Virus record (IMG/VR): IMGVR_UViG_3300006033_000115
Location: 1-22,573 of that record
Length of the DNA stretch: 22,573 nt
Source: a virus
Strand: one strand, 5' to 3'
Below are positions 7,088 to 19,089 of the stretch, one piece after another. The notes under the pieces were generated by a model. It was given only the letters and a program-made list of their open reading frames with translations, was not told the DNA's origin and searched no databases. Each line of letters opens with the position of its first letter. Within the stretch, counting starts at the first letter, position 1. The position numbers were made by a program, and so were the translations under genes.

Positions 7088-7378
7088 TTAGTAGTTTGGA
7101 TACATTTTGGCCTTTTCTGCCTCGAGTCGATGTGTCACAAACTCGGAAATCATCTGACGCTCAGCAAACGTACGTTCGAGCATTTGGTCATATGATATTG
7201 CACCCCGCATGAAGTACACCAATTCAATAACCTGTTGAAGCAATGCGCGACCTTCACCCTCCAGCTGTTCAAACATCCCTGTTATTGCGGCAGGCTGGCC
7301 TGAACGGAGGGTTGCGTAAAAAAACTTTGTGGATTCAGTGGAACATTCAGTGTCAGTGCTGCTTTGCAGTCTTTGCAC
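7088..7378 (-). CDS. -1-frame extension of the tail assembly chaperone (made by ribosomal frameshift)
   Basis: This frame overlaps the end of the upstream gene and is shifted -1 relative to it. The only upstream start is a GTG at 7378 with no Shine-Dalgarno sequence, so separate initiation is unlikely. A T7 slippery run at 7324-7318 lets ribosomes pass from ...NPQSFF into YATLRSGQ. The predicted fusion is 347 aa (271 from the upstream frame plus 76 here) and spans 8130 to 7088. The extension is helical (FEQLEGEGRALLQQVIELV, YFMRGAISYDQM, then a basic-acidic end). By position it corresponds to the T part of lambda GT or gp41-type chaperones. Resemblance to gp51-like partner proteins of T4 phages is from memory only. 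Confidence 0.78.
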   Translation of the reverse strand: MQRLQSSTDTECSTESTKFFYATLRSGQPAAITGMFEQLEGEGRALLQQVIELVYFMRGAISYDQMLERTFAERQMISEFVTHRLEAEKAKMYPNY

Positions 7379-8130
7379 ACGACGTCTGATTGAAACTCCA
7401 ATCCAAATTTGTTGACCTGCTCAACGTGGTGGGTTAGATCAGCAACCCATGGTGGTGGGATGGTTTCCAACCACTCTCGGATGAACCCCTGCTCACTGAC
7501 ACCATCAACATCTACCAATGCAGGTGCAAGCCCTTCAATGATTGTGGAACTAATCATTTGAGCAAACTCCAAATCACTGAGTTCTCCTGCGTTGCGGTTT
7601 TCCATGGACCGCTGAGATGCGGCGATGACATCTGCAAGGAGATATGGTCGAATGTTGACACTTTCGCCAGACGGCATCGTGTACTTCAACCGCTCTTTGA
7701 ATGTTGTGGGGTCCAGTTCTTTGATCTTGTTGAGGAACTGTCGGACGTCAATGTTGTATGTATGAGGTTTGTGATTTTCACAGCTGTGATCATACTTGAT
7801 CTCAACCGTCGATCCATACGTGATCTTTCGCAGTATAACCAGGAGGAAATCGACGTCCTTCGCGATCAATTCGAGAGGATTCACAATCTGTGGGATGCAT
7901 CGAGAAAACGTCTGGACTATCGCCTGACCACTGAACAACAGATCAGGTGTTTTCATCAGAATTTCTTCGTAAGTTGCCATCGGGTAAACATGGAGTTCAC
8001 CCTTCTCCAAAACTTCAGGTGCAACTTGGTTTGTGGTGTAAGTGAGTGCTCGACTTGGGAGCCGCACAGTTTCACCAGGAAGTCGTTTGCTCTGCAGCAG
8101 TGGGTTCACTACAATTGGCGTATCTGTCAT
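7282..8130 (-). CDS. T4 baseplate-family protein (gp26/gp51-like), putative tail assembly chaperone, short form
   Basis: A 282-aa product. The N-terminus has LPSRALTY followed by GELHVYPMATYEEILM and SGQAIVQTFSRCIP, the signature I associate with the T4_baseplate family that includes gp26/gp51-like proteins. DFLLVILRKITYGSTVEIKY and a Cys-x2-His (117-120) follow, then a Cys-x2-Cys (252-255) before LNVPLNPQSFF, which looks like a zinc-ribbon half. The FF pair (270-271) is encoded by the T7 slippery run, after which this frame ends 11 codons later. A minority of ribosomes should continue into the -1 frame. Such proteins act in baseplate or hub assembly and, in other phages, bind the tape measure encoded next, as here. 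The ATG lacks a Shine-Dalgarno sequence and follows a late element by 22 nt. Confidence 0.82.
   Translation of the reverse strand: MTDTPIVVNPLLQSKRLPGETVRLPSRALTYTTNQVAPEVLEKGELHVYPMATYEEILMKTPDLLFSGQAIVQTFSRCIPQIVNPLELIAKDVDFLLVILRKITYGSTVEIKYDHSCENHKPHTYNIDVRQFLNKIKELDPTTFKERLKYTMPSGESVNIRPYLLADVIAASQRSMENRNAGELSDLEFAQMISSTIIEGLAPALVDVDGVSEQGFIREWLETIPPPWVADLTHHVEQVNKFGLEFQSDVVCKDCKAALTLNVPLNPQSFFTQPSVQASLPQ
7318..7324 (-). promoter_or_regulatory. Slippery heptamer T TTT TTT for programmed -1 frameshift
   Basis: On the minus strand the sequence is AG T TTT TTT ACG in the upstream frame, an X XXY YYZ heptamer in correct phase. After a -1 slip the next codon is TAC, which opens 76 sense codons. 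A short hairpin (CAGG...CCTG, 7302-7291) lies about 15 nt downstream and a TGAAC/GTTCA pair may extend it. As a stimulator this is only suggestive. Confidence 0.8.
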
Positions 8131-8160: not shown

Positions 8161-8168
8161 TGCAAAGA

Positions 8169-8194
8169 AAAAGGGGCCCTTAAGGGCCCCTTTT
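8169..8194 (-). terminator. Terminator of the fibre operon
   Basis: Perfect 11-bp arms AAAAGGGGCCC/GGGCCCCTTTT with loop TTAA, followed on the minus strand by a further T and then CTTT. It lies 28 nt after the stop of the fibre gene at 8223, so it ends the unit reading from 12912. Confidence 0.92.
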
Positions 8195-12932: not shown

Positions 12933-12960
12933 AAAAAAGGGTGCCGAGGCACCCTTTTTT
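12933..12960 (-). terminator. Terminator of the 1115-aa collagen-like gene
   Basis: GGGTGCC (12939-12945) pairs with GGCACCC (12948-12954), flanked by six A and six T, so it can work in both directions. The TAA stop of the collagen-like gene (12961-12959) overlaps the T run, the same economy seen at the prohead protease gene. Confidence 0.92.
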
Positions 12961-15900
12961 ACACAACCAACACTCGAAGTTTGACGCCGACGTTAGGCGT
13001 CATTCCTGTTCGCCCAATTGAAACTACACCACTAGCGATTGAGTAAGTCACGTTGGCCATCACTGGACCTGCTCCTGCCTCGTTCATGCTCACCATGATT
13101 GGGAAGATCATGCTGTTTAGGTCGTTCCCTCCGAACGGTTCCGGATACTTGATCATGAACCCAGACGTTGGGTTGAAGTTGATTGGGTAATGGACAGCGA
13201 TCGTCCGCAACATCAGCCCAGCAGGTACGTTGTCAATCTGGACCACACTACCTCCTGTGAGAGTGGCAGTGATTAGGTTCAGGTCCGTCTGCGATCCAGA
13301 CGCCACCACAACTAGCGTGCCATTCGCGCCATTGTTGGTCAGTGGAATGAACCGCTGCACCAGTGCTGTGGACCCTCCACCTCCATTGATTGTGACGGTA
13401 ACGTCAGTACCAACGGCGGTTGCTGTCACACCATCACCTTGGAATGTGAGTGATGTTGCGCCAGTGGTTAGCGATGTTGATTCATCCGACACAGCAAGTG
13501 CTGATCCACTACCAGCCGGACCAGTGGGGCCAGGAATTGTTGAGGCTGCTCCAGTAGGGCCAGTTGGTCCCAATCCACCAGCAGTTCCGTTGATACCTGC
13601 TGGTCCTGTAGGGCCAGTTGCACCAACAGAACCAACTGCTCCCGTAGGTCCAATCGCGCCAATTGGGCCCGTCGGGCCAGGGACAATTGAGTCGGCACCA
13701 GCAGGGCCAACTGATCCAGTGGGTCCCGTTGGACCAGTCAACCCAGCGGTACCAGCGGGGCCAGTTGGACCAGGAATAGTTGAATCTGCGCCGGGAGCGC
13801 CAGGAGCGCCAGTTGCACCAATAGCACCTGTTGGACCAGTCGGGCCTGTTCCACCCAGTACACCGTCAACGCCAGCGGGACCAGTAGGGCCAGGGATCGT
13901 CGAAGCTGCTCCAGTAGGGCCAGTTGGACCAACATCACCAGTCAACCCAGTAGCACCAACGGGGCCGGTTGGACCAGGAACAACTGAATCAGCACCAGGA
14001 GCTCCAGTTGCACCAACTGCTCCCGTAGGTCCTGTTGGACCAGGAACAGTCGAATCCGCGCCTGCAGCACCAGTAGGGCCAGCGACTCCAGCTGCACCTG
14101 TTGGTCCTGTGGGACCAGGGCCACCAAGCACACCATCGGCGCCAGCTGGACCAGTTGGACCAGGAACAGTCGATGCGGCACCTGTTGGGCCAGTGGGGCC
14201 AATGTCGCCAGTCAATCCAACTGGGCCAGTTGGACCCGGAACAGTCGAATCTGCACCAGGAGCGCCAGTTGCACCAATTGCACCTGTGGGACCAGTAGGG
14301 CCAGCAACTGTGGAGTCAGCACCTGTAGCTCCAGTAGGGCCTGTTGGACCAACTGAGCCGACAGCACCATCAACACCAGCTGGGCCAGTGGGTCCAGGAA
14401 CTATCGAAGCAGCGCCTGTTGGGCCTGTCGCGCCAACAGACCCTGCCAAACCAACTGCACCTGTTGGGCCAGTTGGACCTGGGGTGATCGAAGCTGCTCC
14501 TGTTGGGCCAGTTGGACCAGGAGCACCCGTTCCGTCAACACCAGCTGGACCAGTAGCACCAGTTGGACCTGTTGCGCCAATTCCAGCTGCGCCAGTTGGA
14601 CCTACATCACCAGTTGGTCCAACTGGTCCAGTGGGGCCGGTAGCGCCATCAACACCAGCTGGGCCCACCGCACCTTGAAGCGAGGCTAGCCATTGAGCTT
14701 CAGTTCCAATAAATCCAGCGAGGACAGCTTGTTGATACGCTGACAACCCAGCACCCGTTGGGCCTGTAGCTCCAGTGGGGCCAGCCGTTCCAATCAACGA
14801 CATCAACCAGTCAGCTTCTGTCCCAACGAAGCCGTTGGTCACTGCAACAGAGTAGGCATCTTCACCACCGGGGCCTGTTGGACCAACGGAGCCAGTTGGA
14901 CCAATCAACGACATCAACCAGTCAGCTTCCGTTCCAACGAATCCACCAGCGACGGCAGCTGTGTATGCAGAAGGACCAACAATCCCCTGAGGGCCGGCTG
15001 GGCCCGTTGCACCCTGTAGTGAAGCAAGCCAGTCAGCTTCCGTTCCAACGAATCCACCAGCGACGGCAACTTGAAACGCAGACAATCCCTGCGAACCTGT
15101 TGGACCAGGAGCACCATCAGCACCCTGCAATGATGCGAGCCATTCAGCTTCTGTTCCGACAAATCCACCAGCAACTGCTGCTGTGTAAGCTGATGGACCA
15201 GGAGCACCATCAGCACCCCGCAATGATGCGAGCCATTCAGCTTCTGTTCCGACAAATCCACCAGCAACTGCAGTTTGGTATGCTGAATCTCCAGGCAACC
15301 CCCTAGGACCCTGAGTTCCTGGTGCGCCGCTAGCACCAGGCAATCCTGGCGCAGGTGGGAAGAAGCGAATTGAGGTCTCTGAAATTACCCGTGCAACAGG
15401 AGGCTGATTTGCGCGTGTTGGATTGGTGATTGCTGGATCAGTATCCGTCAACTGTCCCGACACGTCAACCCAGAGTGGTGCGTTGACAGTTCCCCAAGAC
15501 CATTTCAGATTGTGAATAATGCCCTGCAACACAATTGAGCCATCATCATTCATGGCCATTGGATTGGACGCAAAACCAAGGATTCGATCGGTTGTATCCT
15601 CATACACCGCCAAGCGAACAGTGTTGAAGCTGTCATACGTCACGACGGAGAATTGTGGAATCGGCTCCAGTGCTTCAACAGAAATCAGTCGAGTTTCTAG
15701 TGAGTTGGGCGACGACACGGTTCCGTTAACGACCATGTCATCTTCAGTTGTGAACAATTCACCATTGCTTTTGCGAATTGGTCGACCATCCATGTCATAC
15801 ACAATTTTACCAACCATCCGAACACCAGTTACCCCAATCTGGGAACCAAAGGGGTAATACTCGACAATGGCTGCTTGTGCATACTTGGCAACAAACACAC

Positions 15901-16306
15901 GAACTTTTTCGATCCAAGCGGTACCGTTCCACACCTTCATCTTGAAGTTTTGGGTGTCGAACCAGTGTTGGTCAAATATGTGTGGGGCAGCTGGAGCTGT
16001 CTGTTTAACGATTGGTAGGGCAGGCGTAGCACCATAGGTGAGCACGCCTGTGGTAATGTTCACGTCTACGTAGAGCCAGTAGTCTGTTCCACTAGGAAGC
16101 TCTGGAGAGCCAAACCCCGTCCAAGCATTGGCAATGTCACTCTCGATCGACACTAGGTAGTTGGACTGCCCATGTGCAAAGTTGAGAATGAGTGGAGAGT
16201 TTCCTGCTAGGAGCGTCACCGACGTTGGGAGTGGCTGCAGGTAGTTTGGTACTCCTGCTCCTGTTTTTTGGCCGTTGGCAACACCTTGCCGGAATTGTAA
16301 TAGCAT
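12959..16306 (-). CDS. Collagen-like phage fibre protein with 31-aa [10 protein letters not shown] repeats (1115 aa)
   Basis: The frame extends to a TTG at 16351, but those 15 codons cover the late promoter. The ATG at 16306 gives MLLQFRQGV, matching MVINFRHGV at the start of the paralogous gene upstream. Residues 1-317 are a paralogous head region (ending SIRFFPPAP). Six repeats of [22 protein letters not shown] with Gly-X-Y linkers follow (about 335-545), then a long GPTGPTG collagen-like tract (about 545-932). The end is a unique beta-rich domain of about 180 residues, beginning with a [15 protein letters not shown] bridge. Collagen-like triplets make trimeric stalks in phage fibres, so a trimeric fibre with an N-terminal virion anchor and C-terminal tip is the likely form. 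It has its own promoter and terminator. Confidence 0.87.
13510..14670 (-). repeat. Collagen-like Gly-X-Y coding tract
   Basis: About 1.16 kb of nine-base-like units encodes [15 protein letters not shown] and [12 protein letters not shown] variants. Synonymous codons (GGA/GGC/GGG, CCA/CCT/CCC) are mixed, which limits long exact repeats, but many 15-20-base identical stretches remain. The tract can change length by recombination or slippage. Confidence 0.9.
14672..15310 (-). repeat. Six tandem [13 protein letters not shown] repeats
   Basis: The unit is about 31-38 residues: [19 protein letters not shown], SL, then a Gly-rich linker. Two neighbouring copies near 15127 and 15220 are 93 bases apart and identical for more than 50 bases. 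Copies near 14800 and 14903 (with WLMSLIG) are also nearly identical, so some duplications look recent. Confidence 0.88.
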
Positions 16307-16332
16307 GGACTTGGACTCGTTTTGGGATCTCG

Positions 16333-16340
16333 TATTTATA
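16333..16340 (-). promoter_or_regulatory. T4-type late promoter (TATAAATA) for 1115-aa collagen-like gene
   Basis: An exact TATAAATA octamer, followed by CG, lies 26 nt before the ATG at 16306 and just after the upstream gene's terminator. It is the best match in the window and anchors the interpretation of the weaker copies. Confidence 0.85.
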
Positions 16341-16367
16341 GCACCCTGCAAAACTCACCAGACACAG

Positions 16368-16392: not shown

Positions 16393-19089
16393 TCACTTGA
16401 TGAGGTATCGAGTTGCTGAGGAGTTTGTCGTCCCCAGCGATCGCCACTCGGGCTTCACTGGCTGATCATGTCGGATCCACACTTTCCCAACAAGACCGAT
16501 GATTCCCCATTCTTTTCGATGTTGGCGTCCCACATATTTCACAGTGGGATCCCAATCTGGGTTTAGAGCAAATGTATCCTCAACGTATGTTTCAGCGTCT
16601 TCAGGAATGGCAATTCCATCTCTGATGGCAGTATCCAGTTCGTAGTTGTGTTCCACATCTCCAGCATTTGTTGCCTCTACCCAGCGAACACGTTCCTGTT
16701 GGATTGGGATTTTGCGACCAAAATCATCATACAAGAATCGCCCTGCCCAATACGTCTCTGCACTGTCGCCAACAAATGCTCCTGTTCCAGATACCACACC
16801 AACAATGGAGTCAATAGTATCCCCAGCCTCCCACACGCGAACTTTATCGCCAACTAACACAACACAACAACCAACACGATCTTCGTTGGATGGGTTGCCG
16901 TCAGCCCACTCGAAGAATTCAGCGTAGTCCGCATGCAATGTCGAGAAGGTTGTTCCGCCAGAAATCGCCCCCGTAGCCCACACAGCAAATTCCGCTGCAA
17001 TCACAGGGTATGTGGTCGAGTTGACAGCAGTGTTAGTGGAATACGCAGCAAATGCGAGGTTTGATGCGATTGGGCGAATCGCTACGTTCACTCCCGGGTT
17101 GACGCTCGTCGCGCTCGTGCTGTTGTGGATAAACACACCAACGTCAGACACGCCAACTTGATAACCAAGGGCATCAATTGTTGTAGTTCCGGAGTAGATC
17201 CCCATACCGACCGTGTAGGTGTTGCCATACAAGTTCAAACTCTTTGACCCAGTTACTGTCAGCCCAGCATCGAAGTTGTATGTGGTCGTTGAGTTTCGAG
17301 CGTAGTATGAGCCAAGCAGCGTGGTTAGATCAGACTGCACAACAGCTGTATTGCCTGTGATTCGGCCTTTGGTGTCCCAAGTGATCTTCGAAAAGTTCGT
17401 TCCCGCTGTTTGAGTGATTGTCGCCAATGTCGTTGGGATTGTGATGTTGGCTGTCCCATTGAACGAAGTGGCAGTTCCTACAACATCACCACTCGTTGCA
17501 ATTGTGCGTGCGGTTGCAAGCGATGTTGCAGTTGCAGCGTTTCCTGAAATTGTAGTCTGCAGTGGGTGGACGTGATCTGAACGAGCTGCAGATGCAGCCG
17601 TACCAACACTACCAGTTCCAGCTGCAACCAGGGGTGTAGTTGCGCCATAAGTCACAGTTCCCGATGCCCCGGTGGGACCCGTTGCCCCAGCTGTACCGGC
17701 GGTTCCAGCTGCGCCAGTTGGTCCGGTTGGTCCAGTCGGACCAGTTGCCCCACTACCCGTTCCACCACTACCCGCGGGGCCTGTTGGGCCGATCGCACCC
17801 GTCGATCCTGTAGGTCCCGTCGCTCCCTTTGCCCCTGTTGCACCTGGTGTACCGGCAGTTCCAACTGCGCCAGTTGGTCCGGTTGGTCCAGTTGCCCCAC
17901 TGCCCGTTCCACCACCTCCAGCAGGACCTGTTGGGCCAACTGCTCCTGTGGCTCCAGTTGGTCCCGTCGCCCCACTGCCCGTTCCACCACTACCCGCGGG
18001 GCCTGTTGGGCCTGTTGCTCCATTCAAACCAATTCCGATAGGGCCAGTTGGTCCGGTTGGGCCTGTAGCTCCATTTCCAGTTCCACCACCAGACTCCACA
18101 ACCCCTATCACTTGTTGGAGGTGCTCAGTGCCAACAATCATCGGGAAGAACCGAATTTGATTCGGCGACATCACACGTGCAATCGGCAATTGTGGTGATC
18201 GAGTGGGGTTGGATGCTGTGGGGTTAACTTCCGTCAATCCACCATTCACATCAACCCACAACGGCGCGTTGACCGTCGTCCAATTCCAACCCATATTCTC
18301 GATCACCCCCTGAAGTACAATGGGGCCTTGAGTGTTTGTCTGAATCGAAGATGTTGCAATTCCGAGAATTTTTGATCCAGTATCTTCGTAGTTCGCTAGT
18401 CGGATAAAATCCGCATTGGTTAGACACACTATCGAGTACGCTGGGACAGACTGCTGAGCAGTCACTTGAAAGATTCGAGTCTCCAACGAATTTGGAGCTG
18501 ACACTGTCCCATTTACATAGATGTAGTCTTCTGTGGTAAAGAACTCACCATTTGATTTCCGAACCGGACGACCATTCCCGTCATAGATGATCTTTCCAGT
18601 AGGAATGTCCGTACCAGATGCGCCTATCTGCGTTCCATATGGACGATGCTCGATTGTGGTGTTGTTGACCAACTTGCCAACAAAGATTCGAATCCGTTCA
18701 ATCCAAAGTGACCCAGACCAGACTTTTGTTGTGTGATTGACTGTGTCATACCAATGGCGATCGTTTTCTGGAAACTGAGGAGCTGTTGGGGAGACAACGA
18801 GGGGGTATCGACTCTGACCATACGTCAACACACCTGTTGTTGCGTGGACATCTACATACAGATGGTAGTCAACCCCAGCTGGGTACGTCGCCGTGCGAAA
18901 TCCAGTCCACGATACCGTGTTTTCAATCGAGATCAGGTAGTTTGTCGTCTTGTGAGCAATGGCCAGTACCAATGGGCCAGTTGTGGTCACAAGATCCACA
19001 GTATTCCACGTAGTGCGGAGAAACGCGGGGGCGTTTGTAGCTGCATCAAAAGATGAGCTGACGACACCATGTCGAAAATTGATAACCAT
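16393..19089 (-). CDS. Collagen-like fibre protein with C-terminal Peptidase_G2-type autoprocessing domain (898 aa)
   Basis: Residues 1-310 are paralogous to the head of the 1115-aa gene ([48 protein letters not shown]). A GPTGPTG collagen-like tract follows (about 330-475). The next region has common fibre motifs: [30 protein letters not shown] and [16 protein letters not shown]. From about residue 715 the sequence [20 protein letters not shown], then [20 protein letters not shown] and [11 protein letters not shown], matches the Peptidase_G2 domain known from phage phi29 gp12, an intramolecular chaperone that cuts itself off after trimer folding. The protein is probably a trimeric fibre whose C-terminus helps folding. 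Whether cleavage occurs here is not shown. The ATG at 19089 follows a late element by 24 nt. Confidence 0.88.
17665..18100 (-). repeat. Collagen-like tract in the 898-aa protein
   Basis: This stretch encodes GPTGPTG and [17 protein letters not shown] units. The Ser/Gly-rich GSGGTGSG spacer occurs several times and is absent from the other collagen-like gene, so the tracts have diverged while the head domain stayed recognisable. Confidence 0.88.

Follow-up and report, generated by a model that had tools for sequence, protein, structure and literature searches.

A conserved poly-T slip site predicts short and long forms of a tail assembly chaperone from one gp26-like gene in T4-related myophages

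The gene and its slip site

The stretch of DNA analysed here, called the window, comprises 22,573 nt (positions 1 to 22,573 of IMG/VR record IMGVR_UViG_3300006033_000115). A search for its close relatives among viral and genome contigs found none. Its minus strand carries a gp26-like gene, whose product matches PF12322 (T4_baseplate) with an E value of 2.2e-9 (37.8 bits vs a curated cut-off of 24.5) and phrog_150 with an E value of 4.4e-10. When this 0-frame product was used as a tblastn query, homologues were found in 61 phage records, nearly all of them jumbo myophages, and many of the alignments stop near the FF pair encoded at the site described below. An AlphaFold2 model of the protein has a pLDDT of 79.6, falling below 50 for residues 273-282.

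Eleven codons ahead of the stop of this gene, a run of seven Ts (7324-7318) lies in X XXY YYZ phase, with the codons AGT TTT TTT ACG, beyond which the -1 frame has 76 open codons. Slippage at this position would yield a fusion (TAC-NC) of 271 + 76 = 347 aa. Both features had been read from the sequence by the initial annotation, and both hold. The run is one of only two homopolymers of at least 7 nt in the window, and among the 16 in-phase XXXYYYZ sites within the window's genes it is the only all-T heptamer. On its own the open frame is only mildly unusual, since by chance alone 2.3% of the codon positions in the window's genes are followed by 76 or more open codons in the -1 frame; the case thus rests on conservation across phages. 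The slip site is preceded by an invariant CxxC knuckle, and C252 and C255, together with an upstream cysteine region near residue 117, may form a zinc ribbon, in which we infer a role for zinc.

Table 1. Features of the putative chaperone locus and its surroundings (coordinates in the window)
Feature	Coordinates	Strand	Description
0-frame ORF, 282 aa	7282..8130	minus	short chaperone form (TAC-N, putative), gp26-like, PF12322 T4_baseplate / phrog_150
Slippery heptamer T TTT TTT	7318..7324	minus	0-frame context CAA AGT TTT TTT ACG
-1 frame extension, 76 codons + stop (7090-7088)	7088..7318	minus	gp51 C-terminal-like domain
0-frame tail past slip, 11 codons + stop	7282..7317	minus	disordered in model, not conserved
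CxxC (C252, C255)	7366..7377	minus	invariant knuckle just ahead of slip site; invariant columns in alignments A1 and A3
First ATG in -1 frame	7274..7276	minus	5 nt past 0-frame stop; possible re-initiation start
Candidate tape-measure gene, 1011 aa	4018..7053	minus	34 nt downstream of extension
Palindrome hairpin GGGGCCCTTAAGGGCCCC + T run	8168..8190	minus	perfect palindrome, strong, intrinsic-terminator-like, between structural gene and chaperone gene

Gene neighbourhood

The initial annotation had placed the frameshift right before a tape-measure candidate. A 1011-aa gene does adjoin it, positioned between the gp26-like gene and the portal in a neighbourhood that is common to most jumbo relatives, but its label as a tape measure is weakly backed. 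Its match to phrog_28 (E 1.6e-5) covers residues 800-912 only, a tblastn search with it against phages gave no match, and when jumbo tape-measure candidates were aligned with it by hhalign, 47 residues matched weakly. Six jumbo counterparts were scanned, and only that of BF matches tape-measure PHROGs (about 3e-6). Upstream of the putative chaperone gene is a 965-aa virion-structural-like ORF, and a position between the major tail (tube) protein and the tape measure, as in the G/GT type, was not found for the chaperone gene. The terminator-like hairpin just upstream suggests that the gene probably starts a new transcription unit.

Conservation of the slip site

Comparison of homologues reveals that the T run and the -1 frame are kept together, as the initial annotation had proposed should be examined. 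In a set of 16 annotated jumbo phages and one uncultured genome, T TTT TTT or T TTT TTC occurs in phase at the same FF pair in 17/17; the slip lies 12 to 72 nt ahead of the 0-frame stop, and the -1 frame continues for 51 to 75 codons beyond that stop. Among IMG/VR loci, T TTT TTC is in phase in all 90 (80 cyanophage-like, 10 jumbo), and the -1 extension is present wherever the contig is long enough, 2 of the 90 contigs ending before the extension does. An in-phase slip is also found in Delftia phage PhiW-14, in the KVP40-like EniLVp02, in a contig of 63% GC (L115), and in a further independent lineage (L123). Rhizobium phages have it as well, as T TTT TTC in IC12 and T TTT TTG in RL38J1.

The 0-frame proteins were clustered at 60% identity by single linkage. 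The resulting 22 clusters span jumbo phages, cyanophages, Rhizobium phages, KVP40-like phages, and the 63% GC contig. The sequence NNT TTT TT(C/T/G) is in phase at the site in 19 of the 22, and at 6 of the 79 xFF sites elsewhere in these loci (Fisher p = 1.3e-12), so the suggestion that the slip occupies a conserved place at the FF after the second CxxC is well borne out. The codon ahead of FF in these 19 clusters specifies A, S, H, D, N, Y, G, or R, and it always ends in T.

The three exceptions, Cygsa01, Mutine, and K364 (L023, L117, and L118), keep the extension domain and lack the heptamer, indicating that the extension can be supplied another way. In K364 and Cygsa01 the two reading frames have an overlapping stop-start. 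The junction in Mutine has no ATG. In a divergent group consisting of L013 (LR756511) and L115 (the IMG contig of 63% GC), more sequence separates slip and stop, and the linker leading into the extension is poorly conserved. The record of RL38J1 (L022) carries the extension at both of its ends (43-255 and 158200-158412), apparently owing to a terminal repeat that includes the chaperone locus.

Translation of the -1 frame

The extension is under purifying selection, with a dN/dS of ~0.10 in the cyanophages and ~0.10 in the GAP32 group. PA5oct and RaK2 lack a usable start for an independent extension. The -1 ORF of PA5oct contains no ATG, GTG, or TTG except within its last 30 codons; in RaK2, the first possible start codon is 95 nt past the slip; and RAS14 has no ATG at the place that matches the first -1 frame ATG of the window, only a TTG. 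Furthermore, the window, XacN1, and RAS14 resemble each other more in the -1 frame than in the 0 frame over the stretch from the slip to the 0-frame stop, and this is so before any start codon. The same contrast in a second group is not clear.

The initial annotation had also argued for a frameshift from the observation that the GTG of the -1 frame (7378) has no Shine-Dalgarno sequence. The observation is correct, but the argument is uninformative because the portal, protease, candidate tape-measure, and gp26-like genes also lack one. Shine-Dalgarno sequences are in fact missing at nearly all genes of the window (minus-strand starts at 2067, 3972, 7053, 8130, 12133, 12890, and 19089), which may tell something of translation initiation in the host.

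In the cyanophages, the slip has a GGAGG ~10 nt to its 5' side and a hairpin of 7 bp that begins 8 nt to its 3' side. The hairpin shows modest covariation, which is confounded by the coding region. A downstream stimulator common to all lineages was sought and none was found, the short hairpin being present in cyanophages only, and no clear stimulator was seen near the slip in the window. The slip of P2, T TTT TTG, works without downstream structure (PMC3091744).

Relationship to T4 gp26 and gp51

T4 gp26 covers the full length of PF12322. Its paralogue gp51 also belongs to PF12322 and continues for a further ~48 residues at the C terminus, a part that hits phrog_634 ("baseplate hub assembly catalyst") at 1.8e-7. 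The same family is matched by the -1 ORFs of Sf-FS3 (8e-27), IC12 (5.5e-8), and RL38J1 (4.9e-15). The homology of the extension to gp51 is thus direct for the cyanophage and Rhizobium phage extensions, and for the jumbo group to which the window belongs it comes through profile-profile comparison only: the jumbo extensions match the combined set of cyanophage extensions and the T4 gp51 C terminus with P = 6e-6 and a probability of 85%. A Pfam scan of the extension gave nothing significant. When the jumbo 0-frame family was aligned with T4 gp26 and gp51 by single-sequence hhalign, the matches were weak; the PF12322 profile links both.

Copy number is consistent with this relationship. Of 25 phage records, 22 have one PF12322 copy, and two copies are present in T4 and its close relative Stupor, which have a separate gp51 gene. 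SCTP-2 gives no PF12322 match above threshold, yet its copy was found by tblastn. Together, the extent of PF12322, the phrog_634 matches, and the copy number indicate that the short form is the counterpart of gp26 and the fusion that of gp51. One frameshifted gene thereby appears, from these comparisons, to do the job of T4 gp26 and gp51, in the manner of lambda G/GT.

A frameshifted tail assembly chaperone

The gene is very probably a tail assembly chaperone of a T4-related myophage, predicted to be made in short and long forms by a programmed -1 frameshift. Most ribosomes would end in frame and produce the short form of 282 aa. A minority would slip back one base at T_TTT_TTT, with tRNA-Phe re-pairing, and read 76 more codons to give the form of 347 aa. 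If the roles follow those of lambda gpG/gpGT, the tape measure protein would be coated by the short form, tail-tube subunits would be brought in by the extra domain of the long form, and neither form would stay in the finished virion. T4 would obtain the equivalent pair from two genes, gp26 being the short form and gp51 the paralogue with the extension fused on. The slippage in cells, its rate, and the binding partners in this scheme are deduced from the sequence and from these analogies.

The main rival to the frameshift fusion is re-initiation, in which ribosomes would restart at an ATG near the stop of the first gene and make the extension as a separate small protein. The window itself has such an ATG, and its genes need no Shine-Dalgarno sequence. 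Cyanophages have a conserved ATG just past the stop, and in one of them a 63-aa ORF is annotated on its own as "baseplate hub assembly catalyst"; the slip-less K364 and Cygsa01 have their stop-start overlap. Re-initiation could therefore add a free form in the cyanophages. As the general explanation it is quite unlikely, given the lack of a start codon in PA5oct, the lack of one near the stop in RaK2, and the TTG of RAS14. In addition, the heptamer is kept despite changes in the preceding amino acid and even at 63% GC, the -1 frame is the better conserved one ahead of any start codon among the three sequences compared, and in T4 gp51 the two domains are naturally joined in one protein. The fusion could also arise if RNA polymerase slipped on the T run and generated a mixed mRNA. 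Seven Ts could in principle allow this, but in most relatives the seventh position is a C, the X XXY YYZ phase is kept throughout, and the GGAGG and hairpin of the cyanophages resemble known ribosomal stimulators, making transcriptional slippage highly improbable. The initial annotation also named an artefact, in which a misread or misassembled homopolymer would have broken up a single continuous gene; its probability is negligible. Homopolymers are error-prone on some platforms, but the arrangement recurs in dozens of independently sequenced isolates and contigs, and the distance to the 0-frame stop differs between lineages. Such an error is refuted for the family, and chance is likewise rejected by the 90 IMG/VR loci and the 19/22 clusters.

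A different kind of alternative accepts the frameshift and takes the protein to be a component of the baseplate hub rather than a tail assembly chaperone. Databases label the family in this way, the copy in CBB is labelled "structural protein", and genetic work cited in a review of the T4 tail places gp26 in the hub (PMC3004832). In the same review, gp26 and gp51 are placed among the hub assembly chaperones, and gp51 is described as essential, of unknown function, and absent from the particle (PMC3004832). The GenBank record of phage Stupor labels gp26, gp51, and gp28 "tape measure protein assembly chaperone", and the title of Vladimirov et al. 2022 announces the identification of T4-like tail-chaperone genes. 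A hub component is therefore unlikely, and the assignment of the gp26/gp51 family to the tail assembly chaperones, which the initial annotation had suggested along with a lambda-like logic, is supported by comparison. Leads from the fold are weak. Foldseek against the PDB paired the AlphaFold2 model of the window's protein with the HK97 tail assembly chaperone gp13 (2ob9; probability 0.30, E 2.5), and a model of cyanophage gp26 (pLDDT 82.9) found 2ob9 again (probability 0.23, E 2.1); the TM-scores normalised by target are 0.46 and 0.38. The two query models are homologous, so these matches are not independent trials. The E values are not significant alone, and the modelled likeness is a lead, weakly suggestive of a shared fold, and not a proof. 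A sequence search of solved structures gave no match.

Known systems and evolutionary implications

The proposed arrangement has several precedents. Lambda gpG/gpGT likewise comprises short and long products with a common N-terminus, made by a -1 frameshift near the 3' end of a gene just upstream of the tape-measure gene, but the heptamer is another one. P2 gpE/gpE+E' is similar in its poly-T heptamer T TTT TTG, its contractile tail, and its location directly upstream of the tape measure gene T, but gpE is without the CxxC pair. The extension was found to have no sequence homology with either lambda T or P2 E'. In the Vandenendeviridae and Andersonviridae, a conserved -1 frameshift with a poly-T motif has been proposed in the myophage tail chaperone gene (TAC-N/TAC-NC of phage Adele; PMC12846349); the motif there is given as GTTTTT, and the likeness to the present family is by description only. 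T4 gp26/gp51 is of the same family, and its gp51 includes the homologous C-terminal domain, but T4 uses two genes where one gene with a -1 slip would yield both products in the phage of the window.

A 2016 review describes G-T frameshifting as widely conserved "except T4" (PMC5009743). According to the PRFect paper (PMC10885494), Vladimirov et al. 2022 found some T4-like phages to have a short gene beside a longer, fused one. The Adele paper (PMC12846349) attributes to the same study the poly-T slip sites of TAC-N genes in T4-like phages. As these citing papers describe it, the mechanism is therefore not new in principle. What the present comparison adds is its reach among T4-related myophages, together with an explanation for a pair of ORFs that is widely misannotated. 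In many jumbo phages and cyanophages, gp26 is followed by a small ORF labelled "hypothetical" or "hub assembly catalyst", which probably encodes the latter half of a frameshift product. Homologues with a fixed slip for gp26-like and gp51-like products also support the idea that gp26/gp51 is the G/GT pair of T4. We lean toward the view that T4-related myophages, jumbo phages and cyanophages among them, ancestrally made their pair of tail chaperones from a single gene with a T_TTT_TTY -1 frameshift. T4 gp26/gp51 would then have come from a duplication that replaced frameshifting, and Ackermann-type phages would use overlapping stop-start genes instead.

Other features of the window

At 50-1396 on the plus strand, the window contains a fragment of the terminase large subunit, which begins inside an intein-like domain; this domain ends ...VVSHN|C, ahead of the RNase-H part of the terminase. 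The Pfam Intein_splicing match of this fragment is just 0.057; its terminase part matches at 1.4e-5. On the minus strand, 12959-16351 and 16393-19089 encode two large proteins with long collagen-like GPTGPTG repeats, which are probably tail fibre or decoration proteins. The first of these, 12959-16351, is accompanied by a long antisense ORF that is probably spurious.
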